A stretch of 47,056 nucleotides of DNA from Candidatus Omnitrophota bacterium (GTDB lineage Bacteria; Omnitrophota; Gorgyraeia; Zapsychrales; Zapsychraceae), in the NCBI GenBank assembly GCA_023247445.1, contig JAHFGL010000015.1:1-47056 (forward strand). The letters are read 5' to 3'. A program made the position numbers and the translations under genes. The notes beneath the pieces are model-generated. The model saw only the letters and a program-made list of their open reading frames with translations, was not told the origin of the DNA and did no database searches. This document shows positions 18,517 through 36,166 of this stretch, one piece after another. The first letter of the stretch is position 1. Each line of letters begins with the position of its first letter.

Positions 18517-18558
18517 AACGATCACAAGAATCGGGTGGCTGAAATTTCTTATCGCAAG

Positions 18559-18564
18559 TATAAT
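18559..18564 (+). promoter_or_regulatory. -10 box of a leaderless-type promoter before the AraC-Ogt gene
   Basis: A perfect TATAAT ends 6 nt before the ATG at 18571. Only a poor -35 match (TGGCTG, 18536-18541) is seen. The spacing leaves no 5' leader. Confidence 0.5.
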
Positions 18565-18570
18565 CACACT

Positions 18571-19419
18571 ATGAAAAACAATCTGACACAATTATCAAAA
18601 GATTATTATCGAATCGAAAAGGCTATTCGTTTCTTGGATAAAAATTTTCATCGTCAACCGAGCTTACAAGAAGTCGCCAGAACCACCGGAGTTAGCGAAT
18701 TTCATTTCCAGAAAATTTTTCAGCGCTGGGCCGGGATCAGTCCAAAAAAATTCTTACAGTTTCTTACCAAAGAATATGCCAAAGAATTATTAAAGAAATC
18801 AAATCTGCTCGATGCAAGTTATGATGCGGGGCTGTCAGGACCGAGTCGTTTGCACGATCTGTTTATTAATTATGAAGCGATGAGTCCGGGTGAATACAAA
18901 CAAAAGGGAAAGGGGCTAACCATTGACTACGGATTTCATCCTAGTCCTTTTGGTGAATGTTTTATTGCGCTGACGAATCGCGGGATTTGCCGTCTAGCGT
19001 TCTTGAATAAAGAAAGTCAGAAAAAAATATTAGACGAATGCCTAAAAATTTGGACAAATGCCAAGTTCAATCACAATCACGAAAAAACCAAGGTCTGCGT
19101 TGAAAACATTTTCAATCCACAAAAATCAAAAATAAAAAATGGCACAATAAAATTATTATATCAAGGTACAAATTTTCAAATGAAAGTCTGGGAAGCTCTT
19201 TTACGAATTGAGCCAGGAACAGCCGTCACTTATAAAACAGTCGCCGAGTGGATTGGTTCGCCGCGTGCTGTCCGTGCGGTGGGAACGGCGATTGGCAAAA
19301 ATCCGATTGCGTATCTGATTCCATGTCATCGTGTCATCCGTGGGATGGGTCATTTAGGCGGTTATCGTTGGGGCCTGGCACGAAAAAAAGCCCTTCTGGC
19401 CATGGAAGCCTCGGCATAG
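18571..19419 (+). CDS. AraC-type regulator fused to O6-alkylguanine-DNA alkyltransferase
   Basis: The 282-residue product is an Ada-like protein without the N-terminal zinc methylphosphotriester domain. Residues about 12-105 form an AraC helix-turn-helix pair (PSLQEVARTTGVSEFHFQKIF and MSPGEYKQKG). The rest is the Ogt/MGMT domain with GTAVTYKTVAEWIG, RAVGTAIGKNPIAYLIPCHRVI and GGYRWG. The methyl-acceptor Cys is residue 252 in PCHRV. It repairs O6-methylguanine by irreversible transfer to Cys. The AraC part may regulate DNA-repair genes, but without the Ada N-terminal switch its inducer is unclear. ATG 18571 is preferred over GTG 18535 because TATAAT lies between them. Confidence 0.92.
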   Translation: MKNNLTQLSKDYYRIEKAIRFLDKNFHRQPSLQEVARTTGVSEFHFQKIFQRWAGISPKKFLQFLTKEYAKELLKKSNLLDASYDAGLSGPSRLHDLFINYEAMSPGEYKQKGKGLTIDYGFHPSPFGECFIALTNRGICRLAFLNKESQKKILDECLKIWTNAKFNHNHEKTKVCVENIFNPQKSKIKNGTIKLLYQGTNFQMKVWEALLRIEPGTAVTYKTVAEWIGSPRAVRAVGTAIGKNPIAYLIPCHRVIRGMGHLGGYRWGLARKKALLAMEASA

Positions 19420-20319: not shown

Positions 20320-21837
20320 ATGATTGATTTAAAATCTCCCCAGCATGGATTCCTTGCCTATTTAAAAAGCCTCATTATTATTGCGCTAGTTACGGCCTTA
20401 GGATGGTTCGTCAAGAGCAGCTTTGGCTCGATGAACTTGGATATGTTTTATCTATTAATTGTCGTCATGATTGCCATCCGCTGGGGAAGAGGCCCGGCGA
20501 TTATGACGTCAATATTAAGTGTTCTTGTGTTTAATCATTTTTTTGTTCCATCCCACTTAGCCTCATTCGGATTTAATTTGCAATCAGCGTTGGTGCTTGT
20601 AGGATTTATGGGAGTAAGCTTTGTCGTTGGGACACTGACGTCAAAAATACGACAACAGGCCATTGAGGCCCAGAAGCGGGAAGAGCAAGCGACAATGCTT
20701 TATCATTTAAGCAAGGATTTAGCGGCTGTCCATTCTTTTGACGAAGTACTTGAAATTATCCGGATCAATGTCGAAAAAATATTTGATTGCCGTGTCACGA
20801 TCTTTCTCTCGGTAGATAACAAATTAAATCTCACGAGTCCCGATTCAATCTTCCCACCAACCCAACAGGAAAAAACTATCGCCCAATGGGTTTACGAGCA
20901 TGGCCAGCCCGCCGGTTTGTGTACAGAAAATTTTACGGAATCTAAGGGACAATATTTACCTCTTAAAACATCACAAGAAGTGTCCGGTGTTTTGGCTATC
21001 TTTTTAAAAGAAAATCAAATAGTATGCGATCTTAGGGAAAATAATTTATTAAATACATTGGCTAATCAGGCCGCGATTGCAATTCAACGAACGCGACTAG
21101 CTGAAATATCCCGTCAGATGGAGCTCATGCGTGAAACGGAAAAACTTCAGACCGCACTTTTAAATTCCATTTCGCATGATTTAAGAACTCCCCTGGTATC
21201 GATCATGGGTGTATTAGATACACTCCTTCATGATTTCTCGTCTTTGGATCGACAAACGAGGGAAGAGCTCTTGGCAACCGCCTATGAAGATTCAGATCAC
21301 TTAAATCGCTTGGTGAGCAATCTTTTGGATATGACCCGACTAGAAGCCAAGGCGTTAAAAATTCATATCGAACCTTGTGAACTGCGCGATGTCATTGGCT
21401 CCTCATTACAATCTTTGAAAGATGAAATCGAAAAAAGAAAAATCAACATCAATATTCCCGATGATCTTCCTGAAGTTCCAATGGATTTTGTTTTGATGAT
21501 GCGCGTTCTTATCAACTTAGTTGATAATGCGATTAAATATTCACAAGCGGAAGCTCCCATTGAAATTAGTGCGGAAGCTTTGGGCGATAAAATAAAAATA
21601 GATGTTAAAGATAATGGGATCGGTATTCCCAAAGATGATTTAACTCGGGTGTTTGATAAGTTTTATCGCGCCGTTAAACCAAGGCAGATTACCGGGACTG
21701 GGCTTGGACTTTCTATTTGTAAAGGGATTGTAGAAGTGCATCGCGGAGAAATTTTTGCCAAGAATAATCCAGACAAAGGGGTGACAGTATCCATTATTTT
21801 GCCTTTGACTGGGAAGGAGGAAAGAGTAGATGGCTAA
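20320..21837 (+). CDS. KdpD-like sensor histidine kinase lacking the N-terminal KdpD/Usp part
   Basis: The 505-residue product has a DUF4118 block of four membrane helices (about residues 15-105, ending IRQQAIEAQKREEQA). A GAF-like domain follows (about 120-265), then a HisKA domain with NSISHDLRTPLVSIMG (His286 as phospho-acceptor) and an HATPase domain (LVDNAIKYSQ, DNGIGIPKDDLTRVF, GTGLGLSICKGIVEVH). It matches the C-terminal half of KdpD. The roughly 350-residue cytosolic N-terminal sensor of E. coli KdpD is missing, and no kdpFABC is nearby. It overlaps the regulator gene by 8 bp. The signal it senses is unknown. Confidence 0.92.
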   Translation: MIDLKSPQHGFLAYLKSLIIIALVTALGWFVKSSFGSMNLDMFYLLIVVMIAIRWGRGPAIMTSILSVLVFNHFFVPSHLASFGFNLQSALVLVGFMGVSFVVGTLTSKIRQQAIEAQKREEQATMLYHLSKDLAAVHSFDEVLEIIRINVEKIFDCRVTIFLSVDNKLNLTSPDSIFPPTQQEKTIAQWVYEHGQPAGLCTENFTESKGQYLPLKTSQEVSGVLAIFLKENQIVCDLRENNLLNTLANQAAIAIQRTRLAEISRQMELMRETEKLQTALLNSISHDLRTPLVSIMGVLDTLLHDFSSLDRQTREELLATAYEDSDHLNRLVSNLLDMTRLEAKALKIHIEPCELRDVIGSSLQSLKDEIEKRKININIPDDLPEVPMDFVLMMRVLINLVDNAIKYSQAEAPIEISAEALGDKIKIDVKDNGIGIPKDDLTRVFDKFYRAVKPRQITGTGLGLSICKGIVEVHRGEIFAKNNPDKGVTVSIILPLTGKEERVDG

Positions 21838-22531
21838 CGATCAAAACAACATGCGGATTTTAATCGTTGATGATGAAAAAGCCATCAGACGCTTTCTTAA
21901 AGCCACGCTCGTCGCTCATGGATACAATGTATTTGAAGCCTCCGATGGCGCTGAGGCTTTAAAGTATGCCCTCAATTCATACCCGGATGCCATCATTTTA
22001 GATTTAGGATTGCCAGATATGGATGGAGTGAAAGTTGCCCAGCGTATTCGGGAGAGATCACATATTCCCATTATTATTTTATCCGTACGGGAAAATGAAT
22101 CAGATAAAATTGCCGCCCTTGATGCGGGGGCGGATGATTACCTAACCAAGCCTTTTAAAATTGGTGAAATGCTTGCGCGGATTCGAGCTGTCATGCGAAG
22201 GCTATTGCCAAGCAATGAAACCATTTTTACAGTTGGAAAACTCTCTATCGATATTGGCAAACGTAGTGTACTCACGAAAGGTCGGCAGATCCACCTAACG
22301 CCGATTGAATATAATATTTTGAAACTTCTTGTTTTAAACGCTGGAAAAGTGGTGACCCATAAACAGCTACTAAAAGAAGTATGGAATAAAACAGAGGACT
22401 TTGAAGGCATTGCCCATCTTCTAAGGGTCATGATTAGTAATTTGCGCAATAAAATTGAGCCCGACCCAAATCGACCTATTTATATTCTCACCGAACCAGG
22501 TGTAGGTTATCGTCTTTCCATCGATATTTAA
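21830..22531 (+). CDS. KdpE-like OmpR-family response regulator
   Basis: The 233-residue product has a receiver domain (ILIVDDEKAIRRFL, AIILDLGLPDMDG with phospho-acceptor Asp58, KPF near 110). A C-terminal winged-helix DNA-binding domain follows (LTPIEYNILKLLVLNAGKVVTH, LRVMISNLRNKIEPDP, EPGVGYRL). It is KdpE-like in sequence. The start has a strong GGAGG and overlaps the kinase gene. The regulator gene ends 17 bp before a direct-repeat box that is also found before nuoJ, so complex I genes are candidate targets. OmpR-family proteins usually bind direct repeats spaced about one helical turn. Confidence 0.93.
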   Translation: MANDQNNMRILIVDDEKAIRRFLKATLVAHGYNVFEASDGAEALKYALNSYPDAIILDLGLPDMDGVKVAQRIRERSHIPIIILSVRENESDKIAALDAGADDYLTKPFKIGEMLARIRAVMRRLLPSNETIFTVGKLSIDIGKRSVLTKGRQIHLTPIEYNILKLLVLNAGKVVTHKQLLKEVWNKTEDFEGIAHLLRVMISNLRNKIEPDPNRPIYILTEPGVGYRLSIDI

Positions 22532-22548
22532 AACAACTCCCACATAAT

Positions 22549-22572
22549 AAAATTGACCTTTTCTTGACTTGT
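22549..22572 (+). promoter_or_regulatory. Conserved box upstream of nuoA, also found before nuoJ
   Basis: It reads AAAATTGACC then TTTTCTTGACTTGT. It holds TTGACC and TTGACT spaced 11 bp. The same 24 nt with one C-to-T change lies upstream of nuoJ on the - strand (37032-37055). The box ends inside the -35 element. It is probably a binding site for an activator or repressor. Confidence 0.75.
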
Positions 22573-22597
22573 TCTTGCCTAGCATTGCACTTAATAT
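22569..22597 (+). promoter_or_regulatory. Putative nuoA promoter
   Basis: TTGTTC (22569-22574), 17-bp spacer, TAATAT (22592-22597) inside CTTAATATTA. The nuoJ promoter has TTGTCT-17-TAATAT at the same place relative to the conserved box. The leader to ATG 22661 would be about 57 nt. Confidence 0.6.
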
Positions 22598-22660
22598 TAC
22601 TATTATCATTTTGTAATATAAATATTTTCAAAGCTTGTTGCCCACTAAACTATCCATAAA

Positions 22661-23014
22661 ATGCTAGATTATCTTGCGATCATATTTGCTTTTATATTTG
22701 CCGTAGGACTTGCGGCATTTCTTTTAATCATCCCGAAATTTCTTAGTCCAAAATTTCCCAGCGCAGTAAAATCCCAACCCTTTGAATGTGGAAAAGAACC
22801 ATTTTCACTACCCGGCGGGCAAATGCCTGTCCATTTTTATATTGTTGCCATGCTTTTAATTGTGTTTGACGTGGAGCTCGTGTTTCTTTTTCCTTGGGCC
22901 GTACTATTTAGGGAGTTAGGTATTTTTGGTTTAATAGAAATGACCGTTTTTATGGCTTTTGTAATCTTAGGATATTTTTATGTACTTAAAAAAGGCTCGT
23001 TAGAGTGGGAGTAA
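22661..23014 (+). CDS. nuoA: NADH-quinone oxidoreductase subunit A
   Basis: Small membrane subunit of complex I, 117 residues with three helices. The family motifs are visible: SQPFECGKEPF in the first loop, VHFYIVAMLLIVFDVELVFLFPWAV with the conserved Asp and Glu of the second helix, and a C-terminal GSLEWE. The loop carrying Cys lies near the quinone site. It is the first gene of the + strand half-operon, 129 bp after the response regulator gene. No clear Shine-Dalgarno sequence precedes its ATG. Confidence 0.97.
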   Translation: MLDYLAIIFAFIFAVGLAAFLLIIPKFLSPKFPSAVKSQPFECGKEPFSLPGGQMPVHFYIVAMLLIVFDVELVFLFPWAVLFRELGIFGLIEMTVFMAFVILGYFYVLKKGSLEWE

Positions 23015-23019
23015 AATAA

Positions 23020-23580
23020 ATGTCTTTCTTAAGTTCTCCAACGAATTTTTTTACAGCGAAGTTAAATGACGCCTTAGGTTGGGCGCGTAAATATTCTATT
23101 TTTCAATATCCCTTTGTCACAGCTTGCTGCGGTATGGAATATATGTCAACGGCGACCGCCCACTATGACGTGGATCGTTTCGGTGCGGGATTTCCCCGTT
23201 TCTCACCCAGACAATCGGATGTTCTTTTTGTCGTTGGAACAATAAGTCATAAAATGGCGCCGGTCTTAAAAGACGTCTATGACAAAATGTGCGAACCCAA
23301 ATGGGTCGTTGCCTTCGGGGTCTGTACTTGCACGGGGGGGTTTTACGATAATTACGCAACTGTTCAAGGCATTGATACGATTATTCCCGTTGATATTTAT
23401 ATTCCAGGTTGCCCACCGCGCCCAGAAAACGTTATTGATGGGTTAATAAAACTTCAGGAGAAAATCCAAAAGGGAGAGCAATCTAGAACCCTGTATGATC
23501 CGCGGATGAAAATAGGCCGACCTGAGCATTTACAAAAAGGATATTCCGTTGAAGAGCATATCAAAGATACAAAATCTTAA
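23020..23580 (+). CDS. nuoB: NADH-quinone oxidoreductase subunit B
   Basis: Peripheral-arm subunit that holds iron-sulphur cluster N2, the last electron carrier before quinone. The 186 residues include the tandem cysteines in TACCGMEYMST, the third Cys in FGVCTCTGGFYDNY and the fourth in YIPGCPPRPENVIDG. The conserved DRFGAGFPRFSPRQSDVLFVVGTI follows the first pair. It starts 5 bp after nuoA. Confidence 0.98.
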   Translation: MSFLSSPTNFFTAKLNDALGWARKYSIFQYPFVTACCGMEYMSTATAHYDVDRFGAGFPRFSPRQSDVLFVVGTISHKMAPVLKDVYDKMCEPKWVVAFGVCTCTGGFYDNYATVQGIDTIIPVDIYIPGCPPRPENVIDGLIKLQEKIQKGEQSRTLYDPRMKIGRPEHLQKGYSVEEHIKDTKS

Positions 23581-23583
23581 ACC

Positions 23584-24078
23584 ATGACACCTTTACAAAG
23601 AGTTCAAGAAAAATTTTCACAAGACGTTATTGAAACTCACGCCTTTCGAGGGGATGAAACGCTTCTTATTCGTCCGGCTTCTTTGCAGACTGTTGCCAAA
23701 TTTTTAAAAGAAACAGCAGAGCTGGATTTCAATTTTTTAATGGATTTGACGGCTGTGGATTATTTATTTTATGCCGGAGGAAGAGTTCAAAAAGAATTTC
23801 GCTTCGAAATCGTTTATCACTTTTTCTCGCTTAAACATAATCATCGACTACGCATAAAGGTTCCAGTTGATGAAAAAAATCCCGAAGTTGATTCTTTGAC
23901 CGGTCTTTGGGCTTCCGCTGATTGGTATGAAAGGGAAGTATGGGATATGTTTGGGATTCGTTTCAAAGGTCATCCTAATCTAAAACGCATTTTGATGTAT
24001 GAAGAATTTGAAGGGCATGCGCTGCGTAAAGATTATCAATTCAATAAACGACAACCCCTTATTGGACCAAAAACTTAA
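23584..24078 (+). CDS. nuoC: NADH-quinone oxidoreductase subunit C
   Basis: The 164-residue 30-kDa subunit of the peripheral arm. It shows the signature ASADWYEREVWDMFGIRFKGHPNLKRILM followed by FEGHALRKDYQF, which is the family's most conserved block. It is a separate gene, not the NuoCD fusion of E. coli. It lies 3 bp after nuoB and 9 bp before nuoD. Confidence 0.97.
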   Translation: MTPLQRVQEKFSQDVIETHAFRGDETLLIRPASLQTVAKFLKETAELDFNFLMDLTAVDYLFYAGGRVQKEFRFEIVYHFFSLKHNHRLRIKVPVDEKNPEVDSLTGLWASADWYEREVWDMFGIRFKGHPNLKRILMYEEFEGHALRKDYQFNKRQPLIGPKT

Positions 24079-24087
24079 GGTAATATA

Positions 24088-25413
24088 ATGGCTACTCAAA
24101 CCCGCTCAATGCTACTCAACGTCGGTCCTTCGCATCCCGCGATGCATGGAGTCATCCGCCTTATCATGGAATTAGATGGCGAAAAAATTAAAGGCGTTGA
24201 CGTTGAAATTGGATATCTCCATCGAGCCTTTGAAAAAATGTGCGAAACGGTCATGTACACGCAATGCTTTCCCTACACTGATCGACTCAATTATGTTTCT
24301 CCGCTTATAAATAATGTTGGATTTGCGCTTACGGTTGAAAAATTATTAGGAATCGATATTCCTGAACGCGCAAAATATATCCGTGTCATCATGAGCGAAA
24401 TTTCACGCGTCACCGATCATTTAACATGCATCGGAGCGACCGCGATGGAGCTCGGGGCCATGACGGTATTTCTTTACATGATTAAAGCCCGGGAATATTT
24501 ATATGAATTGGTCGAAGAAATTACAGGGGCCCGATTAACTATTTCTTATGTGCGCATCGGCGGGGTCAAGGCTGATTTAACCGAAGGATTTGCGGACAGG
24601 GCTTTTCAAAAAATTGCGGAAGTGCGTAAGGTCCTTATCGAAGCCGATGAGTTATTAACCCGCAACCGGATCTTTTTTGATCGCATGAAAAATGTTGGAG
24701 TAATTTCGAAAGAAGATGCGATTTCGCATGGAATCACTGGTCCATTTTTACGATCGACCGGTGTTGCCTATGATGTCCGTAAAGCCAATCCTTATCTTAT
24801 TTATGAGCGCCTTGACTTTGAAGTCCCAACGGGAACAACCGGCGACAACCTTGATCGTTATTTTGTCCGCATGGCGGAAATGGAACAATCTTTAAGAATG
24901 ATTGAACAATGCTTTCAACAAATTCCCGATGGAGCTATTTCTGGGGAATTAACCGGTGATATTATGCCAGCTGCCGAAATGGTTGATCGCGCGAAAATGG
25001 GAAAAACACAAGGATTCATGGCCTCTGAAGTTGATTTAGACCCTACCCTACAAGGTGGAACGGAAAAATTTCATGATGCCATTAACGCGACGAATAAAGA
25101 TGTTGTCTTGCCCGCTAAAGAAAACACATACGGTAACATTGAAGGTTTAATGAATCATTTTAAATTAGTCATGTATGGTCATGGGATTCATCCTCCAATG
25201 GGTGAGGCGTATTTTCCCACGGAAGGAGCCAACGGAGAACTTGGATTTTATATTGTCAGTGATGGCCGAGATCATCCCTGGCGCGTGCGTGTTCATCCAC
25301 CGTGTTTTCCAATTATGGCCGCATTACCAAAATGTTTAATTGGTGATGTGATGGCCGATTTGGTTCCAACCTTTGGTTCGATAAATATGATCGCTGGAGA
25401 ATTAGATCGATAA
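24088..25413 (+). CDS. nuoD: NADH-quinone oxidoreductase subunit D, with an insertion
   Basis: The 49-kDa subunit, forming the quinone pocket with NuoB. The 441 residues show NVGPSHPAMHGVIRL, the conserved GYLHRAFEKMCE, YTDRLNYVSPL, ISRVTDHL and a normal end (GELGFYIVSDG ... FGSINMIAGELDR). Between AISGELTGDI (about 24940) and VVLPAKENTYGNIEGLMNHFK (from about 25103) it carries roughly 50 residues where the usual family members have a short Pro-rich linker to VMLPPK. The insert is frame-consistent and not repetitive. It lies near the last helix before the quinone-side C-terminus. Confidence 0.97.
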   Translation: MATQTRSMLLNVGPSHPAMHGVIRLIMELDGEKIKGVDVEIGYLHRAFEKMCETVMYTQCFPYTDRLNYVSPLINNVGFALTVEKLLGIDIPERAKYIRVIMSEISRVTDHLTCIGATAMELGAMTVFLYMIKAREYLYELVEEITGARLTISYVRIGGVKADLTEGFADRAFQKIAEVRKVLIEADELLTRNRIFFDRMKNVGVISKEDAISHGITGPFLRSTGVAYDVRKANPYLIYERLDFEVPTGTTGDNLDRYFVRMAEMEQSLRMIEQCFQQIPDGAISGELTGDIMPAAEMVDRAKMGKTQGFMASEVDLDPTLQGGTEKFHDAINATNKDVVLPAKENTYGNIEGLMNHFKLVMYGHGIHPPMGEAYFPTEGANGELGFYIVSDGRDHPWRVRVHPPCFPIMAALPKCLIGDVMADLVPTFGSINMIAGELDR

Positions 25414-25430
25414 CTTAAAATGACACATCG

Positions 25431-25907
25431 TTGGAGGTCATTATTTTTACCGAAGATTTTTTACTAGAACTTTACAAGATTGCCAGCCGTTATGAGGACA
25501 GAAAGGCTGCGCTTTTACCGGTACTACATTATGTCCAGGAGAAAGAAGGTATGATCTCCCTGGAGGCTGAAAAAGATATCGGAGAATTTTTAGACATTCC
25601 TGTTGTCCATGTCCATGATGTTGTTTCTTTCTACCATTTGTTTCATCAAACAAAAAAAGGCAAGTGTCATTTCTCCGTTTGCCAGACAACATCGTGCGCC
25701 TTACTTGGCGGAGAAGATATTATTGAACATCTTCAAAAGCGATTAAACATTAAACCTGGCGAAACAACTCCTGATGGAAAATTTAGTTTAACTCTCGTTG
25801 AGTGCCTGGGCGCTTGTGAAATTGCACCGATGATGCAGTGCAATAAAGAATATAAGGGACTCTTAAACAAAAAGAAAATCGATGAACTAATCGATCAGAA
25901 TAGATAA
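25431..25907 (+). CDS. nuoE: NADH-quinone oxidoreductase subunit E, unusual start
   Basis: The 24-kDa NADH-module subunit with one 2Fe-2S cluster (N1a). Ligands lie in SVCQTTSCALLGG and VECLGACEIAPMMQ. The thioredoxin-like fold is preceded by a helical bundle (LLPVLHYVQEKEGMIS). The only standard in-frame start near the expected N-terminus is TTG at 25431, but this codon overlaps a strong GGAGGT (25433-25438), which would normally position a ribosome a few codons downstream. An ATT at 25443 is a possible rare start. The ATG at 25420 is out of frame. The true N-terminus is therefore uncertain by four or five residues. Confidence 0.95.
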   Translation: MEVIIFTEDFLLELYKIASRYEDRKAALLPVLHYVQEKEGMISLEAEKDIGEFLDIPVVHVHDVVSFYHLFHQTKKGKCHFSVCQTTSCALLGGEDIIEHLQKRLNIKPGETTPDGKFSLTLVECLGACEIAPMMQCNKEYKGLLNKKKIDELIDQNR

Positions 25908-25910
25908 ATT

Positions 25911-27215
25911 ATGGAAAAAATAATCAGCCGACATTTTGACCAAGAAAATTCTCACCGCCTTGAAAGCTATCTTAAAGATAGCGGTTATGAAGGGGCGCGT
26001 AAAGCCTTGACTGAAATGACACCTGAACAAGTTGTTGAAGAAGTTAAAAAATCTAACTTGCGTGGGCTTGGCGGAGCGGGATTCGCAACGGGAACAAAGT
26101 GGAGCTTTATCAAACAAACTTATAAACCCAAATATCTGGTTATAAATGGAGATGAAGGAGAGCCAGGGACATTTAAAGATAAATATATTTTGGAACAAGA
26201 TCCTCACGCGTTTATCGAAGGTGTCATCATCACCTGCTATGCTTTTGGAAGCCACAAGGCCTATGTTTACATCCGTGGAGAATATTTAAAATCAATCGAG
26301 AGATTGCAAGCGGCCATTGATGAGGCGTATAAAAATAAATTTTTAGGTAAAGAAATTATGGGCACACCTTTTCACCTTGATGTCGTTGTTCATCAAGGCG
26401 CTGGGGCCTATATCTGTGGAGAAGAGACGGCGCTTCTAGAATCTCTTGAAGGAAAAAAAGGATTCCCTCGTCTTAAACCGCCTTTTCCCGCCGTTTCAGG
26501 ATTATTTGGATGTCCTACGGTTATTAATAATGTGGAAACCGTGACGTGTGTGGCCCCAATTATTCTTAAAGGCAGCGATTGGTTTTCGAAATTAGGATCG
26601 ACGAAAAATGGGGGCAACCGACTTTTTTGTGTCAGCGGTCATGTCAATAAACCTGGTGTTTACGAACTCCCTAATGGAACGACACTGCGCTCAATTATTT
26701 ATGAACACGCTGGTGGGATTCGTGGTGGCCGAACGCTTAAAGCTGTCATCCCCGGTGGGATCTCAGCGCCTATTCTTACGCCCGATCAGATTGATGTAAA
26801 AATGGATTTTGATTCTTTGAAAGCAATTGGTTCAATGGCTGGTTCCGGTGGGATTATTGTAATGGATGATACCACCTGCATGGTTTGGGCTGCGATGATC
26901 GCTTCACGGTTTTATGCCCATGAATCCTGCGGGCAATGTTCTCCGTGTCGCGAAGGGTCAGGCTGGGTTTACCGTAATATCAAAAGAATTTATCACGGAG
27001 AAGGACAGACACACGATTTGACACATCTTCCTGGAATTATAAACAATATTGGCGGCAACACGATTTGCGCTTTTGGCGATGCGGTCACGATGTCCATCGG
27101 TAGTTACGTATCAAAATTTCGTAGTGAATTTGAAATTCATATTAAAGAAAAGAAATGTGAATTATGCATGAAGAAACAGGGAATAGTGGAGTCCTATGCC
27201 AAAATTAACCATTGA
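25911..27215 (+). CDS. nuoF: NADH-quinone oxidoreductase subunit F
   Basis: The 51-kDa subunit, holding the NADH site, FMN and a 4Fe-4S cluster (N3). The 434 residues show LRGLGGAGFATGTKWSF, the FMN-binding GDEGEPGTFKDKYIL, GAGAYICGEETALLESLEG and the cluster ligands CGQCSPCREGSGW with Cys of NTICAFGDA. An extra CELC near the C-terminus (KEKKCELCMKKQG) is an oddity with no known role. The last 20 bp overlap nuoG. Confidence 0.98.
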   Translation: MEKIISRHFDQENSHRLESYLKDSGYEGARKALTEMTPEQVVEEVKKSNLRGLGGAGFATGTKWSFIKQTYKPKYLVINGDEGEPGTFKDKYILEQDPHAFIEGVIITCYAFGSHKAYVYIRGEYLKSIERLQAAIDEAYKNKFLGKEIMGTPFHLDVVVHQGAGAYICGEETALLESLEGKKGFPRLKPPFPAVSGLFGCPTVINNVETVTCVAPIILKGSDWFSKLGSTKNGGNRLFCVSGHVNKPGVYELPNGTTLRSIIYEHAGGIRGGRTLKAVIPGGISAPILTPDQIDVKMDFDSLKAIGSMAGSGGIIVMDDTTCMVWAAMIASRFYAHESCGQCSPCREGSGWVYRNIKRIYHGEGQTHDLTHLPGIINNIGGNTICAFGDAVTMSIGSYVSKFRSEFEIHIKEKKCELCMKKQGIVESYAKINH

Positions 27216-28788
27216 TGGAAAAGAAATAGAAGTCCCCTCAAAAACGACGATTATTCAGGCGGCAGAAAAATTGGGAATTGTGATTCCCCGTTACTGTTAT
27301 CATCCGGCACTTCCTGTTTCCGGCAATTGCCGCATTTGTATGGTAGAGGTTGAGAAACAACCAAAATTACAAATCGCCTGCTATACAATGGTCGCCAATG
27401 GCATGATTGTTAAAACCAATTCACCGAAAGTACTTGAAGCCCGTAAAACAGTTTTGGAATTTTTGCTCGTCAATCATCCACTTGATTGCCCTGTGTGCGA
27501 TCAGGCCGGAGAGTGCAAACTGCAAGATTATTATATGGAGCATGGTCAATACGATAGCCGCCTAGATGATACAAAAGTCAAAAAAGAAAAGAAGGCCTTC
27601 TCAATCGGGCCAACCGTCATGCTCGATCAGGAACGCTGTATTCTTTGCACCCGTTGTGTGCGTTTTACCGATAATATTACAAGGACGAATGAATTTGGGG
27701 TTTTTAATCGAGGAGATCATTCACAATTAGACGTTTACCCTGGTAAACAACTTGATAATAACTATTCAGGAAATGTCGTTGATATTTGTCCGGTTGGTGC
27801 TTTAACTGATAAAGATTTTCGTTTTAAGTGCCGCGTATGGTATCTGGATAAAACAAAATCTGTTTGTCCAGGTTGCAGCATGGGATGCAATATAACCGTT
27901 GAGTGGGATAAATCCCGACCGCATCAAGATAAAAAAACACGCGTCATGCGTCTTAAGCCACGGGTTAACCCGGATGTCAATGATCATTGGATGTGCGACA
28001 CCGGCCGCTACGATTATCACTTTATTGATAAAAATAGAATTTTGACACCGCAACAAGGGGATAATTTAATTTCCTGGGATCAAGCCATTGATACAATGGC
28101 GCAAACGATCAAGCCGCTTAAAGATTCGGGACATCTGAATAAAATTGGTATTTTAGCCTCAGCCCAATTAACCAATGAAGATCTGTTTCTCATTCGCAAA
28201 TTATTTAAAGACACCCTTAATGGTTCCCAGATAGATTTTCGAGTACCTCAATCATTGGGGGCAAGCGATGATTTTCTGCTTAAAGCCGACAGAAACCCAA
28301 ATACTGCCGGAGCCGATTTGATTCTCCAACCAGCGGAAGACGCTGACTTGCGAGATATTATTCAAAAAGCAAGAAATGGTGGACTCGATATTTTGTATGT
28401 CTTCGGCCATGACTTAGTTAAACTTTTTGGTAAAAACACCGTTGAAGAAATTTCAAAAAATGTAAAACTTTTTATTTTTCAAGGCAGCAATGTCAATGAA
28501 ACATGTGGCTATGCTCATTTGATTTTGCCCAGTGCCGTCTATGCGGAAAAAGACGGGACATTTATTAACAGTCAACATCGCGTCCAGCGAATTTGGCCGG
28601 CGTTTACGCCACTGGGAGAATCAAAGGGGGACTGGGAAATTCTTTCCCTCTTAAGTGCCAAGATAGGGGCCCCCATTAGTTATCCAAACTCTGAAGAAAT
28701 ATTTGACGATATTGCAAGCAGTCTCGCCTTATTTGCTGAAATGTCGTACGAAAAAATCGGTGATCAAGGAATGATGTTGTGGTATTAA
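27196..28788 (+). CDS. nuoG: NADH-quinone oxidoreductase subunit G, short form
   Basis: The 75-kDa-type subunit that carries a 2Fe-2S cluster and several 4Fe-4S clusters along the electron path. The 530 residues include CYHPALPVSGNCRICMVEV (N1b), the His-ligand HPLDCPVCDQAGECKLQDYY, RCILCTRCVRF with DICPVGALTDKDF (N5/N4 type), and CPGCSMGCNITVEW at the start of a molybdopterin-oxidoreductase-like domain. The C-terminal domain is much shorter than in the 908-residue E. coli protein, as is common in several lineages. It starts inside nuoF. Confidence 0.96.
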   Translation: MPKLTIDGKEIEVPSKTTIIQAAEKLGIVIPRYCYHPALPVSGNCRICMVEVEKQPKLQIACYTMVANGMIVKTNSPKVLEARKTVLEFLLVNHPLDCPVCDQAGECKLQDYYMEHGQYDSRLDDTKVKKEKKAFSIGPTVMLDQERCILCTRCVRFTDNITRTNEFGVFNRGDHSQLDVYPGKQLDNNYSGNVVDICPVGALTDKDFRFKCRVWYLDKTKSVCPGCSMGCNITVEWDKSRPHQDKKTRVMRLKPRVNPDVNDHWMCDTGRYDYHFIDKNRILTPQQGDNLISWDQAIDTMAQTIKPLKDSGHLNKIGILASAQLTNEDLFLIRKLFKDTLNGSQIDFRVPQSLGASDDFLLKADRNPNTAGADLILQPAEDADLRDIIQKARNGGLDILYVFGHDLVKLFGKNTVEEISKNVKLFIFQGSNVNETCGYAHLILPSAVYAEKDGTFINSQHRVQRIWPAFTPLGESKGDWEILSLLSAKIGAPISYPNSEEIFDDIASSLALFAEMSYEKIGDQGMMLWY

Positions 28789-28791
28789 TCC

Positions 28792-29874
28792 ATGTCTGAC
28801 ATTCTTATAAAATTTCTCTTAGCATCAGGCACGTTATTTATTATGTTCAATATCGCCGGGCTTTTGACCTGGGTTGAACGTAAGCAAAGTGCCCTTATGC
28901 AGGATCGTATTGGCGCAAATCGCGCCTCCATTTTTGGCTTTAAAGCCATGGGGCTTTTTCACGCCATCGCCGACGTGCTTAAGATGCTTAGTAAAGAAGA
29001 ATTTGTTCCTGCCGGTGCAAATAAATTTTTATTTAACTTAGCGCCCTATTTGTCGGTCACGTTTGCGCTTGTGGGTTTTGCCGCGATCCCCATCGGTAAT
29101 CAACTGATTATGGGGGCACGTGTCATTGAACTTCAAGCGGCGAATTTAAATATCGCGCTTATTTATATTTTTGCCATGATGTCCATGGGGGTCTATGGGG
29201 TCGTTCTCGCCGGATTTTCCTCTAACAGTAATTATGCATTTTTAGGCGGGATGCGCGGGGCAGCGCAGATGATCGCATATGAAATTACGATGGGGGCTGC
29301 CATCATGGGTGTCATCATGGTTTTTAATACGCTTGATCTTCAACAGTTAGTTCGCGCCCAAGGAGAATATTTGTTGGGCGGCTGGCTTCCTAAATGGGGA
29401 ATTTTTGTGCAGCCTTTGGCATTTATTTTATTTTTAACAGCCGCAACCGCGGAAACAAAACGTACGCCCTTTGATCTCCCCGAAGGAGAATCTGAAATCA
29501 TCGGTTATTTTGTTGAATATAGTGGTATGAAATTTGGAATGTTCTTTTTAGCCGATTTGGTTGAGACAGTGCTTGTCGCGGCGCTTATGACCACATTATT
29601 TTTGGGCGGATGGCAGGTACTCTATTTACATCCGGATGGATTTCATTTTCCATGGGGAGCAATTATGACACTCCCACATCTTGCTGTTGTAGGGTTAGGG
29701 GTCTTAGCATTCTTTTTAAAAGTTAGTTTCTTTATTTGGTTTTTAATGGCTGTACGCTGGACATTACCGCGATTTCGTTATGATCAGTTGATGAATTTGG
29801 GGTGGAAGATTCTTCTTCCGGTATCTTTAATTAATATTGCGGTCACCGCTATCATCATTATCCTTTTAAGATAA
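28792..29874 (+). CDS. nuoH: NADH-quinone oxidoreductase subunit H
   Basis: Membrane subunit linking the peripheral arm to the proton-pumping arm. The 360 residues have about eight helices and the family blocks LLTWVERKQSALMQDRIGANRAS, LAGFSSNSNYAFLGGMRGAAQMIAYEI, and TPFDLPEGESEIIGYFVEYSGMKFGMFFLAD. The acidic loop residues of the E-channel are present. It lies 3 bp after nuoG and 4 bp before nuoI. Confidence 0.98.
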   Translation: MSDILIKFLLASGTLFIMFNIAGLLTWVERKQSALMQDRIGANRASIFGFKAMGLFHAIADVLKMLSKEEFVPAGANKFLFNLAPYLSVTFALVGFAAIPIGNQLIMGARVIELQAANLNIALIYIFAMMSMGVYGVVLAGFSSNSNYAFLGGMRGAAQMIAYEITMGAAIMGVIMVFNTLDLQQLVRAQGEYLLGGWLPKWGIFVQPLAFILFLTAATAETKRTPFDLPEGESEIIGYFVEYSGMKFGMFFLADLVETVLVAALMTTLFLGGWQVLYLHPDGFHFPWGAIMTLPHLAVVGLGVLAFFLKVSFFIWFLMAVRWTLPRFRYDQLMNLGWKILLPVSLINIAVTAIIIILLR

Positions 29875-29878
29875 ATCT

Positions 29879-30481
29879 ATGGAAAATCCAAACGAAAAAC
29901 GACGTCAAGAACTTGAAAAGTATTTCGATAAAAAAGGGCCGTTTGTTTTTTTACGTGTGGCTCAGATGAAACGCGCCTGGCAACAAAAAAACCGTCGAGA
30001 ACTCACCTGGTGGGAGAGCACGTACATCCCCACCGTAGTATCAGGCATTTGGCTTACATCGAAACATTTTTTTCGTAACTTAACCCTGCACATTCTTCAC
30101 ACCGTTGGACTTTTTAAAGATATTCCTGCCTCGGCCACGTACCAATATCCAGAACAGCCGCGGCCTTTAGCTAAACGTTTAAGAACCCGACATCGACTAA
30201 TGAAACGTGAAGATGGCACACCACGCTGTGTCGCTTGCATGATGTGTGAAACCGTCTGTCCGGCTCGTTGTATCGAAATTACAGCTACCGAGCACCCTGA
30301 TCCCAATGTTGAAAAACAACCTGCCGAATTTATCCTCGATTTAGGAAAGTGCGTGTATTGCGGCTTTTGCGTTGAGGTTTGTCCAGAAGACGCCATCCGC
30401 ATGGACACCGGAAAACTCGACACATCTGAATATTCCCGCGAAAGCATGATCTACGACAAAAAACGGCTGATGGAAGAGTAA
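29879..30481 (+). CDS. nuoI: NADH-quinone oxidoreductase subunit I
   Basis: The ferredoxin-like subunit with two 4Fe-4S clusters (N6a and N6b). Ligands are seen in CVACMMCETVCPARCIEI and CVYCGFCVEVCPEDAIRMD. At 200 residues it has a longer N-terminus (MENPNEKRRQELEKYFDKKG) than many NuoI proteins. It is the last complex I gene on this strand. The antiporter gene follows in the same frame, 18 bp after the stop. Confidence 0.97.
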   Translation: MENPNEKRRQELEKYFDKKGPFVFLRVAQMKRAWQQKNRRELTWWESTYIPTVVSGIWLTSKHFFRNLTLHILHTVGLFKDIPASATYQYPEQPRPLAKRLRTRHRLMKREDGTPRCVACMMCETVCPARCIEITATEHPDPNVEKQPAEFILDLGKCVYCGFCVEVCPEDAIRMDTGKLDTSEYSRESMIYDKKRLMEE

Positions 30482-30499: not shown

Positions 30500-31372
30500 A
30501 TGATCTATCTTCTCATCGGACTTATCCTTGGTCCCAGTTTCTTAAAACTCATTCCTTCCACAGATTTTGTCCAAACTCTTGGCCATTTGGGCGCCATCGT
30601 CATGCTATTTATCATTGGCCTTGAATTTAAGATTAAAGATATTTTTAATTTACGTTATACCACAATTGCTTTGTTCGGTGTCATTGTTCCATGGATTGGA
30701 GGCTTCTTAACGGCGCATGCATTTGGTTTTGATTTTGCCAATAGTGTTTTTACCGGTACAGCATTAACCGCGACAAGTATCGCCATTACCGCCAGTGTCC
30801 TTAAAGACATGGGCAAATTACAAACAGGTACCGCCAAAGCCATCATCGGCGCGGCTGTTATTGATGATATTTTAGGTCTTTTGGCTCTTTCTTTATCTGG
30901 ACAAATAGTAGGGGCCACGTTTTCCTTTACTACGATGTTTACTTCTTTGTCAATCGTGGGAGCGTTTCTCTCGGGGATTTTCTTACGAAATATTTTGGGA
31001 TCTCAAACAAAAATAATTCACTATTTTTATGTTATTTCCTCGTCAATATTCTTTATTTCGTTAGGCATTCTTGTTGATATACACATTATAACACCCGCCG
31101 TATTTTGGTTTATGAGCGTCCTAACGATTGTTGCTATCTTAACTAAAGTCGTCGGTTGCTTTTTACCAGCCAAATGGCAGGGGTTATCATTTAAAGACGC
31201 TGCCATTGTCGGTTTTGGGATGTCGCCACGAGGAGAGGTGGCGATGATTGTAGGATTAATTGGCCTTAATCAAAATCTAATCACCCATGAAATCTACGCG
31301 GCAATTATCTTTATGAGCCTTATAACAACAATAGTAACCCCAATCGTCCTTCGCAACTGGCTGTATAAATAA
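30500..31372 (+). CDS. CPA2-type cation/proton antiporter, N-terminally short
   Basis: The 290-residue product has the CPA2 (GerN/NapA/KefB-like) membrane pattern: LGHLGAIVMLFIIGLEFKI, TGTALTATSIAITASVL and the ion-binding Asp pair in AAVIDDILGLLALS. A later GMSPRGEVAMIVG matches the conserved Pro-Arg-Gly-Glu block. It begins at what would be the second helix in relatives (IYLLIGLILGPSFLKLI), so roughly 45 residues and the first helix are missing. The upstream codons run into the nuoI stop, so no longer start exists. It may be a functional short form or a decaying gene. Its place in the nuo operon suggests ion coupling with complex I. Confidence 0.85.
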   Translation: MIYLLIGLILGPSFLKLIPSTDFVQTLGHLGAIVMLFIIGLEFKIKDIFNLRYTTIALFGVIVPWIGGFLTAHAFGFDFANSVFTGTALTATSIAITASVLKDMGKLQTGTAKAIIGAAVIDDILGLLALSLSGQIVGATFSFTTMFTSLSIVGAFLSGIFLRNILGSQTKIIHYFYVISSSIFFISLGILVDIHIITPAVFWFMSVLTIVAILTKVVGCFLPAKWQGLSFKDAAIVGFGMSPRGEVAMIVGLIGLNQNLITHEIYAAIIFMSLITTIVTPIVLRNWLYK

Positions 31373-31394: not shown

Positions 31395-32834
31395 TTAGAA
31401 ATGCATTCCTTGAATCGCTGTCATCGCAGCATCAAGAAATGGACCCTGGAAGATTCCGATACCGATAATTCCTGCCATGGCAACTCCTAAAGCCAATCGC
31501 ATCGGTAACGAAACAATAATGGGAGAAGTATTAATAGGGGCATCGACATAAATTCGTTTAACGATCATCAGATAATAATAAAGCGAGATAACAATATTGA
31601 CGGCGGCAACAAGCGCCAGCCATAAAAATTCGCTTTTGATGGTGGCCATAAGAAGAGCAAACTTTCCAAAGAATCCCGCCAAAGGTGGCATGCCGGCTAA
31701 GGATACTAGCGCCAAAAGAAGTGTACAAGCCAAAATTCCCGAACGACGGGAAAGTCCAGCGTAGTCTTCAATGGCGTCACTTTTGGTCGCGATTGAAAAT
31801 AAAATAATAACTAAGAATGCGGCAAGATTTGTGAAGAGATATCCTAAAAGATAAAAATTAATCGCTGATGCCCCCAGTATTGACCCAGCCGTAACACCCA
31901 TAAGAAGATATCCCGCGTGAGCAATACTCGAATAACCCAACAATCGTTTGATATTGGTTTGAAACATAGCAACGAGGTTGCCATAGGTCATGGTGATAGC
32001 GGCAAGCCCGGCTAAGACCAAACTCCATTCAACATGCCAGGCCGAAAAAACACCAAAGAAAAGACGGATCAAGATCACAAACCCAGCAGCCTTAGACCCG
32101 ACGGCCAAAAGGGCTGTTACCGGTGTCGGAGCCCCTTGATAAACATCGGGCACCCACATGTGAAAGGGAACGGCCGCAATCTTAAAACCAACAGCTGAAA
32201 AAATAAGAACCAAACTAAACAACATCATCGGTGTCATTGGATGCGTACTAACAAATCCTTGAATCACATCAAAACGTACCGAGTGAGTGATTCCGTAAAG
32301 AAAACTTACGCCGTAAAGAAAAAATCCCGAGGCCAACGAACCTAAAATGAGATATTTCATTCCCGCCTCAATGGAATGTTTATCACTTTTAAGATACGCC
32401 GTCATGACATAGAGAGAGATAGTCAAGATTTCGATGGCGATAAAAAGTAAAAGAAAATCAGCCGAAGAAGCAATCAAGCACATCCCCAACAGCGCCAGCC
32501 ATAATAGAAAATAAAAGGCATTGCTGCGTTTGCCGGACAGCTTAAAAAACTGCTCGGTCATTAAGAAAACAAAAACCATCGTGATTAGAAATAATCCTTT
32601 AAAAAACCAGGCGAGAGAATCCATAATAAACATTCCGCCAAAGGTTGATCCGCTCAGATCATGTTGGGTAAGCCAAAAACCAATGAGGCCAAAAAGAGCA
32701 ATAAGACTAAATATCCCGATCAAATTCCCTTCGGTTTTCTTAGGACTAAGAATATCCACAATAATCAATCCCACCAACGCGATGGTCATGAGGACTTCTA
32801 AGGAAATTAAATTCCAGGCAATGGATGGAAACAT
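31395..32834 (-). CDS. nuoN: NADH-quinone oxidoreductase subunit N
   Basis: Antiporter-like proton-pumping subunit, 479 residues with about 14 helices. Family blocks are seen in KYLILGSLASGFFLYGVSFLYG, AAVPFHMWVPDVYQGAPTPVTALLAVGSKAAGF, KRLLGYSSIAHAGYLLMG and LAGMPPLAGFFGKFALL. Lys in MKYLIL and the PVTALLAVGSKAA stretch are in the proton channel. It is the last gene of the - strand half-operon and starts 12 bp after nuoM. It ends 22 bp from the end of the antiporter gene on the other strand. Confidence 0.97.
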   Translation of the reverse strand: MFPSIAWNLISLEVLMTIALVGLIIVDILSPKKTEGNLIGIFSLIALFGLIGFWLTQHDLSGSTFGGMFIMDSLAWFFKGLFLITMVFVFLMTEQFFKLSGKRSNAFYFLLWLALLGMCLIASSADFLLLFIAIEILTISLYVMTAYLKSDKHSIEAGMKYLILGSLASGFFLYGVSFLYGITHSVRFDVIQGFVSTHPMTPMMLFSLVLIFSAVGFKIAAVPFHMWVPDVYQGAPTPVTALLAVGSKAAGFVILIRLFFGVFSAWHVEWSLVLAGLAAITMTYGNLVAMFQTNIKRLLGYSSIAHAGYLLMGVTAGSILGASAINFYLLGYLFTNLAAFLVIILFSIATKSDAIEDYAGLSRRSGILACTLLLALVSLAGMPPLAGFFGKFALLMATIKSEFLWLALVAAVNIVISLYYYLMIVKRIYVDAPINTSPIIVSLPMRLALGVAMAGIIGIGIFQGPFLDAAMTAIQGMHF

Positions 32835-32846
32835 ATTTGTCTCTTT

Positions 32847-34328
32847 TTATTTTTTTACGATATTTTCGACAATCGTTTTCGTGCTTGTTTCAATATGTTT
32901 TGAAATAATTAACGGCCAGCATCCAACGAGGATGAGGACGGCCAGTAAAATTATAAACGGAAATTTTTCTACGAGCGTCTGTGCATCCACGAGTTTGTTC
33001 CATTTCGGATTTAACGGTCCTTGAAAACCAAGGCGAATGGCTTTAAGCATATAAATAGCCGTGATTACAATCCCTAAGACGGCAAGAATCGTCTGCCAAC
33101 GATATTGATCCCAAGAACCCAAAAGAACCATAATCTCGGCGACAAAATTAGCAAATCCAGGAACGCCAGCCGAGGCAAGAGCGGCCATCATAAAACACGT
33201 ACCGATAAAAGGCATTTGTTTGGTAATTCCACCAAGTTCATCCAAATTACGGGTTTTGGTTTGATCAGCAACAAACCCGGCTAAAGCAAACGCGAGACTC
33301 GCCATAATGCCATGGGCAAACATCAAAAACACAACTCCATTAAGACTAATCGTATTAAAACACGCGAGTCCCAAGAGAATATATCCCATGTGGCTACAGC
33401 TTGAATATCCTAAAATATATTTCAAATCACGTTGGGTGAGCGCAACAAGTCCGCAGAAAATAATATTAACGACCGCTAGCGTCGCGATGATCGGCATCCA
33501 CGTGTGCGCGGCTTCCGGCATGAGCCCAATGGCAAAACGAATAATGGCGTAAGCTCCCATTTTTTTAAGCACACCAGCATGTAGCATGCTAACCGCCGTT
33601 GGAGCCTCGGCATATCCAATCGGGGCCCAGGTATGAAATGGCCAGAGAGTTAATGTGACACCAAATCCGACGACAATTAGCGGAAAAATCCAATTTTGAA
33701 CAGCCAAAGGGATGGGGTTTGCGGCTAAATGCTGCTGGATCACAACTAAATCAAATGTGTTTAGGCCGGTGGAAAAATATAAGGCGATTAACCCAACCAA
33801 CGCCAAGGCCGCGCCCGCGACTAAATAGAGTGTTAATTTCATTGCCGCCAGTTCACGACGTTCTGATCCCCAAATGCCAATCATTAAGAATACGGGGACA
33901 GCAGCAATTTCGTGGAAGAAATAAAAGAAGAAAATATCTAAAGACAAAAATGCGCCGTAAGTACCGATGATTGTGATCAGAAGCAGAATGTAATATTCTT
34001 TAATACGATCTTTAATCGATTGGCTGGCCACAACAGCGGCAAAAGAAGCAACGCCTAAAAGAAGAAGCATTAAAGAATTAATGCCATCGACACCCAAGTG
34101 ATATGAAATCCCAAATTCTTTGACCCAACGGATCTGCTCAACAAACTGAAAGCCGCCGGCCACAGAATCATAAGCGGTAAAAACCCAGATCGATAAAAGA
34201 AATGGTAACAAGATGGCCACCATCGAAATCCGACGGATTAAGGTCGGCTTATCCGATGGGATAAAGAAAATCAGTCCCAAAAGAAGTGTTGGTAATAAAA
34301 GAATCCAGGAAAGGTTCGGCATCATCAT
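32847..34328 (-). CDS. nuoM: NADH-quinone oxidoreductase subunit M
   Basis: Antiporter-like proton-pumping subunit, 493 residues with about 14 helices. Visible are SYHLGVDGINSLMLLL, FFHEIAAVPVFLMIGIWG with the conserved Glu, LWPFHTWAPIGYAEAPTAVSMLHAGVLKKMGAYAI and LKYILGYSSCSHMGYILLG. The start overlaps the end of nuoL by 4 bp, so translation is probably coupled. Confidence 0.98.
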   Translation of the reverse strand: MMMPNLSWILLLPTLLLGLIFFIPSDKPTLIRRISMVAILLPFLLSIWVFTAYDSVAGGFQFVEQIRWVKEFGISYHLGVDGINSLMLLLLGVASFAAVVASQSIKDRIKEYYILLLITIIGTYGAFLSLDIFFFYFFHEIAAVPVFLMIGIWGSERRELAAMKLTLYLVAGAALALVGLIALYFSTGLNTFDLVVIQQHLAANPIPLAVQNWIFPLIVVGFGVTLTLWPFHTWAPIGYAEAPTAVSMLHAGVLKKMGAYAIIRFAIGLMPEAAHTWMPIIATLAVVNIIFCGLVALTQRDLKYILGYSSCSHMGYILLGLACFNTISLNGVVFLMFAHGIMASLAFALAGFVADQTKTRNLDELGGITKQMPFIGTCFMMAALASAGVPGFANFVAEIMVLLGSWDQYRWQTILAVLGIVITAIYMLKAIRLGFQGPLNPKWNKLVDAQTLVEKFPFIILLAVLILVGCWPLIISKHIETSTKTIVENIVKK

Positions 34329-36166
34329 AAATTTCTAACTAGAATTAAAAATAAAACACAAGTTCCAAGAACAAAAATTAAAGCATAAAACTGAACTAAC
34401 CCTGTTTGCAAAGAACGAAATATTCGTCCACCGGCTTTAGCTGTACTCGTTAAACCAAAAACGCCATAACGGACAATCATCGTTTTTTCAAACCATTCTA
34501 AGAGCGCCGCAAAACTTTGTTGGACACGATTAACATACCAACCATAAGCGGTGTCGAAATAGTATTTATTTTTTAAAATTGGATAAATAAATCCAAGTTT
34601 TGATTCCAGTGGATCTTGCTTTGGACGTTTGCCATAGATCAGAAAGGAAATGCCTAAACCCAAAAGGGCAACGACCGAAGAAATGACGGCGACCTTCATA
34701 TTAAGAGAAGGGTGCTCGCCTTCCGGGAATAAAAAGTGGGGAATACCAATAAATCCGCCAATAACAGAAAGAATGGCTAAGAAAATTAAAGGAAATGTCA
34801 TGACTGCTGGAGATTCGTGAGCATGATTATCAGCCGAAGGTTTCCCCCAAAACGCCGTCCAAAAAAGACGCCCCATGTAAAAGGCGGTTAAGCCAGAGGT
34901 CACCGACGCTAAACAATATAAAAGTGGATTATGTTCAGAAGCTAAGGCTAAGATTTCATCCTTACTCCAAAAACCACTTAAAGGAAAAATTCCGCAAAGA
35001 GCAAGAGTTCCAATTAAAAATGTTAGTCCAGTAATAGGCATTTTTTTAAGAAGCCCATTCATGTTCCAAATATTTTGTTCGTGGTGAAGCGCATAAATAA
35101 CACTTCCAGCCCCCAAAAACAAAAGCGCTTTAAAGAAGGCATGAGTTGTTAAGTGATACATGCCTTGCATCGGACCCGCTAAGCCTAAAGCCATAACCAT
35201 CAAACCCAATTGACTAAGTGTTGAATAGGCGAGAATACGTTTAATATCATTCTCAACAATGGCCAGCGTCGCCGCCATAAGGGCCGTGATCCCACCGACG
35301 TAAGCAATGACGTTTAAAGCCTCGTGTAAGGGTTCGAAAATAAAAAAGGTGCGTGCTAAAAGGTAAACCCCAGCGGCAACCATGGTGGCGGCGTGAATAA
35401 GGGCGCTGACTGGTGTCGGCCCTTCCATAGCATCAGCGAGCCAAACGTGCAAAGGCACTTGGGCCGATTTTCCGATGACGCCGCAAAAAAGTAGCAAGGC
35501 TGTTATCGTTAACAGATGCGGATCTAACTGAGAAACGATGATTGCCAAATCGGTAAATTGAAAACTGCGGCCATGGCCTACGTCGGAGATACTCCATAAT
35601 AAAAGTATCCCGCACAAAAATCCGAAGTCAGCCAAGCGATTGACCATAAAAGCCTTGACCCCAGCATCGGCCGCGGAAGATTTTCCATACCAAAACCCAA
35701 TCAAAAGATATGAGCTTAACCCGACTAACTCCCAGAAAATAAATAATTGAATAAAGTTATTAGAAAGCACGATGCCTATCATAGAGAAGGCAAATAAACT
35801 TAAAAACGTAAAAAATCGCGGCATGCTCGGATCCTCAGCCATATATCCGCGGGAATAAATGAAAATGGCGCTACCAACACCAGTGACAACCAAGAGCATC
35901 ATGATCGCCAGCGGATTGACAAGAAACCCAAAGTTGATCGTCAAGGCATCAAATTGAATCCAAGTAAAAGATTGTTGGAATTCGAGAGCTGGATGAGTTT
36001 GGAATATTTGGATGGCGATTAAAACTGTACAAAGAAAAGAGGTTAAAATTCCGGCGATAGACGATAATGAACTTAACGTTTTAGAGCGTAAGAAAAAAAG
36101 AGTGTTAATAACACAGGCAACAAGGGGCGCAAAAAAAGCTATCCAAACTAAAAGTGGGTTTACCAT
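34325..36166 (-). CDS. nuoL: NADH-quinone oxidoreductase subunit L
   Basis: The distal antiporter-like subunit, 613 residues. It has YMAEDPSMPRFFTFLSLFAFSM, FWELVGLSSYLLIGFWYGKSSAADAGVKAFMVNRLADFGF, VPLHVWLADAMEGPTPVSALIHAATMVAAGVYLLAR and KRILAYSTLSQLGLMVMALG. The C-terminal amphipathic lateral helix region and last helix (LIFVLGTCVLFLILV) are present. It overlaps nuoK by 7 bp and nuoM by 4 bp. Confidence 0.98.
   Translation of the reverse strand: MVNPLLVWIAFFAPLVACVINTLFFLRSKTLSSLSSIAGILTSFLCTVLIAIQIFQTHPALEFQQSFTWIQFDALTINFGFLVNPLAIMMLLVVTGVGSAIFIYSRGYMAEDPSMPRFFTFLSLFAFSMIGIVLSNNFIQLFIFWELVGLSSYLLIGFWYGKSSAADAGVKAFMVNRLADFGFLCGILLLWSISDVGHGRSFQFTDLAIIVSQLDPHLLTITALLLFCGVIGKSAQVPLHVWLADAMEGPTPVSALIHAATMVAAGVYLLARTFFIFEPLHEALNVIAYVGGITALMAATLAIVENDIKRILAYSTLSQLGLMVMALGLAGPMQGMYHLTTHAFFKALLFLGAGSVIYALHHEQNIWNMNGLLKKMPITGLTFLIGTLALCGIFPLSGFWSKDEILALASEHNPLLYCLASVTSGLTAFYMGRLFWTAFWGKPSADNHAHESPAVMTFPLIFLAILSVIGGFIGIPHFLFPEGEHPSLNMKVAVISSVVALLGLGISFLIYGKRPKQDPLESKLGFIYPILKNKYYFDTAYGWYVNRVQQSFAALLEWFEKTMIVRYGVFGLTSTAKAGGRIFRSLQTGLVQFYALIFVLGTCVLFLILVRNL

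Follow-up and report, generated by a model that had tools for sequence, protein, structure and literature searches.

In Escherichia coli, complex I is encoded by a single nuo operon, of which ArcA, NarL and FNR are known regulators. Control through direct repeats is familiar from PhoB, a regulator of the OmpR/PhoB family, whose pho box consists of 11-bp direct repeats with the half-site TGTCA near a poor -35 element. The site of E. coli KdpE before kdpFABC has 6-bp half-sites (TTTATA and TTTACA) that are separated by an AT-rich 5-bp gap and repeat with an 11-bp period (PMC3264566).

The locus described here resembles the E. coli nuo system in the predicted transcriptional control of complex I, but it comprises two convergent operons with one operator type instead of a single operon, and in the open-access literature we found no report of KdpE input to E. 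coli nuo or of KdpE control of complex I. With PhoB and the pho box, the locus shares the regulator family and the 11-bp direct repeats near a poor -35 element, whereas the half-site sequence and the linked genes differ, and the regulator is nearer to KdpE than to PhoB (232 versus 180 bits in NCBIfam). Its likeness to E. coli KdpD/KdpE lies in a regulator of the KdpE subfamily and in two T-rich 6-bp half-sites that start with TT, have an 11-bp period and flank a T-rich 5-bp gap. In contrast to the E. coli system, the half-sites are TTGACC and TTGAYT, the targets are complex I operons rather than a potassium pump, and PF02702, the sensor domain of KdpD, is missing from the kinase. In this uncultured Omnitrophota bacterium, respiration has apparently come under the control of a re-wired potassium-response circuit.

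Two Convergent Complex I Operons Share an Upstream Element

The window (the whole stretch of DNA analyzed, 47,056 nucleotides) is one contig (C67) of the draft genome G000 (2.29 Mb, 95.6% complete). The nearest matches of its complex I proteins are in Candidatus Omnitrophota metagenome-assembled genomes, and the NuoA and NuoJ identities are backed by NCBIfam models with scores below the curated cut-offs. Genes for a KdpD-like kinase and a KdpE-like regulator lie directly upstream of nuoA, with 18 nt from the end of the regulator gene (22531) to the start of the nuoA box. The features of the locus are as follows.

20320 to 21837, + strand: KdpD-like sensor histidine kinase, 505 aa, with DUF4118 membrane region, GAF, HisKA and HATPase, without N-terminal PF02702 (domain search)
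21830 to 22531, + strand: KdpE-like response regulator of the OmpR/PhoB family, proposed binder of both boxes (NCBIfam, PDB matches, contact residues)
22549 to 22572, + strand: operator box, nuoA side, with half-sites TTGAC (22553-22557) and TTGAC (22564-22568) and a weaker third repeat TTGCC (22575-22579) (sequence, motif scores)
22569 to 22574, + strand: putative nuoA promoter -35, TTGTTC (sequence, promoter scoring)
22592 to 22597, + strand: putative nuoA promoter -10, TAATAT, 17 nt from the -35 (sequence, offset scan)
22661 to 30481, + strand: nuoA-B-C-D-E-F-G-H-I (open reading frames, NCBIfam, comparison with relatives)
31395 to 36977, - strand: nuoJ-K-L-M-N, convergent to nuoA-I (open reading frames, NCBIfam, comparison with relatives)
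37007 to 37012, - strand: putative nuoJ promoter -10, TAATAT (sequence, offset scan)
37030 to 37035, - strand: putative nuoJ promoter -35, TTGTCT (sequence, promoter scoring)
37032 to 37055, - strand: operator box, nuoJ side, with half-sites TTGAC (37051-37047) and TTGAT (37040-37036) (sequence, motif scores)

Two further genes were noted in the window. A 290-aa CPA2-type cation:proton antiporter (Na_H_Exchanger) is encoded at 30500-31372, after nuoI and in the same direction, between the converging halves; no such gene was found at this position in the relatives examined. An Ada-like fusion of an AraC-type helix-turn-helix and an O6-methylguanine-DNA methyltransferase is encoded at 18535-19419.

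The 24-nt box before nuoA reads AAAATTGACCTTTTCTTGACTTGT (22549-22572, + strand), and the box before nuoJ reads AAAATTGACCTTTTCTTGATTTGT (37055-37032, - strand), with one C-to-T change between them (23/24 identical). The sequence CTTAATATTA, which makes up the -10 region, begins 41 nt past the box start at both sites (22590 for nuoA and 37014 for nuoJ), and the whole shared element extends over 22549-22599 on the + strand and 37055-37005 on the - strand. On re-reading of both strands, the shared parts, their equal spacing and the single C-to-T change that a preliminary description of the locus had reported were exact to the base, and the TTGTnn-17-TAATAT promoter that it had read is readable at both sites, as TTGTTC-17-TAATAT before nuoA and as TTGTCT-17-TAATAT before nuoJ.

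When up to three mismatches are allowed, the 24-mer has exactly two matches in the window, the same two in the whole 2.29-Mb genome, and none in each of 100 dinucleotide shuffles of the window, which bears out the earlier judgment that a chance match is very unlikely. The 23/24 identity of the boxes could also reflect a recent copy of one promoter, with no shared control. However, the 17 bases separating the box from the -10 element agree at only about 6/17 positions, while the box and the -10 element are kept, which indicates that the two sites share islands and not one recently copied block. The pair is also kept, with different sequences, in the genomes G040 and G067, an outcome that already disfavors a copy or chance. 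Taken with the empty shuffles, these data leave a recent copy or chance with next to no likelihood.

The Box Abuts a Putative Weak Promoter at a Fixed Offset

The box is a direct repeat, TTGAC-CTTTTC-TTGAY-TTGT, whose half-sites (TTGAC-N6-TTGAY, 11-bp period) abut a weak TTGTnn-17-TAnnnT promoter. On the nuoA side, a third and weaker repeat (TTGCC at 22575) keeps the 11-bp phase. A -10 element of at least 3 bits is located 39 nt from the box start in 8 of the 9 nuo-class sites, and all other offsets average below zero. Because the -10 element occurs at this single offset, the reading TTGTnn-17-TAnnnT of the putative promoter, as proposed in the preliminary description, is supported and fixed.

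The complete -35/-10 pair at both sites and the resemblance of TTGAC to a -35 element could be taken to mean that a factor-independent promoter module, either an extended -35 or an alternative sigma-factor promoter, drives both operons. The -10 element, however, is phased to TTGTnn and to neither TTGAC. Moreover, the distribution of the box in the class follows that of kdpE orthologues, and convergent operons without kdpDE mostly use standard boxless promoters (see below). We therefore consider a factor-independent module improbable and favor the reading of the box as an operator.

Plain-promoter scores of the boxed sites range from 5.8 to 10.6, compared with 10.8 to 14.1 for the majority of complex I promoters in kdpDE-free genomes. 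The weaker core promoters fit promoters in need of an activator, and control is thus more probably positive. At nuoA, an overlapping second promoter (TTGCCT-17-TACTAT) outscores the proposed one (9.0 versus 6.4). Because the site touches the -35 element and computation does not fix the sign of control, the KdpE-like protein may alternatively bind the boxes and repress both operons. Such repression is unlikely, given that core promoters weaker than those of kdpDE-free genomes are as expected for activated promoters, that the same geometry is present before kdpFABC in relatives, and that KdpE mediates induction of the E. coli counterpart (PMC3264566). Activation of both operons is the reading that we carry forward.

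The Regulator Belongs to a Clade Nested among Potassium-Linked KdpEs

The best NCBIfam match of the window's regulator is KdpE (E = 4e-69; 232 bits, below the curated cut-off of 325). The regulator also matches the E. coli KdpE structures 4kny and 4kfc (E = 6e-61), and its receiver (PF00072) and winged-helix output (PF00486) domains are both above cut-off. The DNA contacts of E. coli KdpE (R193, R200 and T215) and its phospho-acceptor D52 are conserved here and identical in all four nuo-linked KdpEs; the E. coli KdpE sequence used in this comparison agrees with the PDB alignment. In the phylogenetic tree, this KdpE group is held together against other regulators of the order (100/100), and the nuo-linked KdpEs form one clade (95/98) nested among potassium-linked KdpEs. 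This nesting suggests that the role in potassium control came first. Since the nuo-linked KdpEs are of one origin, the four genomes that carry them with a box do not represent independent cases.

The KdpD sensor domain PF02702 is absent from the nuo-linked kinases of G000, G067 and G024, and present in the G024 paralogue and in G001. In G024, the nuo-linked kinase is also without the DUF4118 membrane region, while the second pair in that genome has the full KdpD architecture. Of the two KdpDE pairs in G024, one is located between nuoJ and pntAB (G024:C91, L165), and the other, full-length pair (G024:C98, L225) precedes a short kdpF-like reading frame at the end of the contig.

Genome searches found neither TrkH nor Kup in any of the four boxed genomes (G000, G040, G067 and G024), and KdpA was found in G024 only and not in the other three. 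The usual targets of such a regulator are therefore absent from three of the genomes, assembly gaps aside. Because neither kdpFABC in the genome nor the KdpD sensor domain on the kinase was found, the locus is not a Kdp potassium system, though it would work like a KdpDE circuit.

The Box Follows kdpE Orthologues across the Class

Orthologues of kdpE (E ≤ 1e-75) are present in 16 of 384 genomes of the class. In other families, a box of identical type occurs directly after kdpE orthologues that are 60 to 75% identical, and it precedes KdpA genes in G319 and G211 and TrkH genes in G214, G405, G181, G255, G301 and G259. More diverged boxes follow kdpE in G275, G001 and G297 and follow the second kdpE of G024. 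In a scan of all 384 genomes with at most one mismatch, 10 of the 11 box matches came from 8 of these 16 orthologue-carrying genomes (Fisher's test, P = 1e-11, phylogeny ignored), each of them adjoining kdpE or a complex I operon. The eleventh match, in G296, which has no kdpE orthologue, is inside a gene and was rejected as an operator.

A matrix built from 13 kdpE-downstream sites, with no nuo site in the training set, gave 24.8 bits for each nuo box. By comparison, 2.3 Mb of first-order Markov sequence yielded a maximum of 20.0 bits, and the next non-overlapping site of the window scored 11.5. The motif of the potassium-transporter side thus ranks the two nuo boxes at the top in G000. In a calibrated sequence model of the same 13 sites, the boxes of the nuo operons take the two highest ranks in G000, G040 and G067, with E-values (0.006 and 0.02) that are modest because the motif is short. 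A site of 15.4 bits before a nuclease-like gene (G000:C45:2654-2673) has no link to the regulon and is probably a chance match, as which we also treated the other low-scoring genome sites checked, mostly inside genes.

These distributions also bear on whether the kdpE-like gene is a bystander and the box is used by a different regulator of the OmpR/PhoB family in this genome. Regulators of this family recognize direct-repeat sites (PMC3264566), and a first look at the genome yielded 34 candidate stretches for them. The box, however, follows close KdpE orthologues across many families with differing downstream genes, which makes a bystander very improbable and points to the KdpE-like protein as the regulator that uses the box.

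Boxes at Complex I Operons Accompany Close kdpE Genes in the Order

Our sample of the order comprised 81 genomes, 19 of them with this complex I. The convergent arrangement is present in all five relatives whose locus was fetched across the convergence (G040, G050, G079, G080 and G077) and also in G037, where nuoA-C fall off the fetched piece. Only G000, G040, G067 and G024 encode a KdpE of at least 80% identity, and boxes are present in each of them. In G000 and G067, a box precedes both complex I halves. G040 has one box at nuoJ and another between kdpE and a DUF502-pntA2-pntB-nuoA run, not directly before nuoA. G024 carries a box at nuoJ, with kdpD divergently oriented; an identical box is located where a contig ends and is presumably the nuoA-side box with the nuoA side cut off. 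A further copy in G024, before pntA2 (G024:C91, L229:983), has a repeat period of 10 bp and not 11 bp. The proposal of the preliminary description that both operons are under one control is strengthened by this recurrence before both halves in other genera and families, with the nuoA sides of G040 and G024 as just qualified.

Of the 15 complex I genomes that lack a close kdpE, 14 are boxless at the readable promoters, and most of these have standard promoters, such as TTGACA-16-TATGAT at nuoJ. The exception is G052 (88% complete), in which a box-like site is located on contig C117 between nuoJ and divergent pntAB, where TTGACA-17-TATACT is also readable; a search of this genome found no close kdpE, and the site may be left over from a lost regulator. 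Complex I loci from a general genome collection had no box. Upstream of nuoA, several kdpDE-free genomes carry a gene whose C-terminal end is conserved (376 aa in G037, L146:3003-4133). The NuoA/B/J tree is poorly resolved, and a topology that holds the four boxed genomes together is marginally rejected (p-AU 0.045). We therefore make no claim of horizontal transfer.

A Proposed Redeployment of a Potassium-Uptake Circuit to Complex I

From the box and its half-sites, the fixed promoter geometry, the link to kdpE orthologues and the nested clade of nuo-linked KdpEs, all computed directly, we conclude that the box is very probably the operator for the KdpE-like regulator whose gene is immediately upstream of nuoA, that it probably serves activation of both complex I halves, and that it probably originated in a potassium-uptake circuit. 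Shared control of the two nuo operons is well supported by sequence comparison, and they are predicted to be co-regulated in the cell. Binding of the boxes by the KdpE-like protein, and activation rather than repression, are what the same comparisons suggest. The preliminary description thereby gains a named controller, the 11-bp half-site structure, and an origin of the operator in potassium transport.

We propose that two KdpE-like molecules would bind head to tail on the TTGAC and TTGAY half-sites, 11 bp apart and adjoining the poor -35 element (TTGTnn), and that the bound regulator would recruit RNA polymerase to the TTGTnn-17-TAnnnT promoters. One sensor kinase/regulator pair would in this way switch on both halves of the split complex I together. 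The pair and its operator may descend from a potassium-uptake circuit, as relatives have the same regulator with a box before kdpFABC or trkH. In this lineage, they may have been redeployed to complex I, with NAD(P) transhydrogenase as an additional target in two relatives. More tentatively, and with slightly less than even confidence, we conjecture that, in bacteria lacking Trk, Kdp and Kup, this Kdp-type two-component system has become detached from potassium transport and is now a dedicated controller of the proton-pumping NADH dehydrogenase (and of transhydrogenase in relatives), and that its pared-down sensor responds to a signal that is energetic or redox in nature.

The locus would represent an example, from an uncultured phylum, of a re-wired regulatory circuit whose regulator, operator and promoter geometry stayed the same while its target shifted from the import of potassium to complex I. 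Genomes with potassium-linked copies, others with nuo-linked copies and one with a possible relict (G052) are all available, which makes the steps of this change testable with ordinary assays. Our analysis names a candidate controller of respiration in Omnitrophota, and a single regulator is predicted to coordinate the two halves of a 14-subunit complex.
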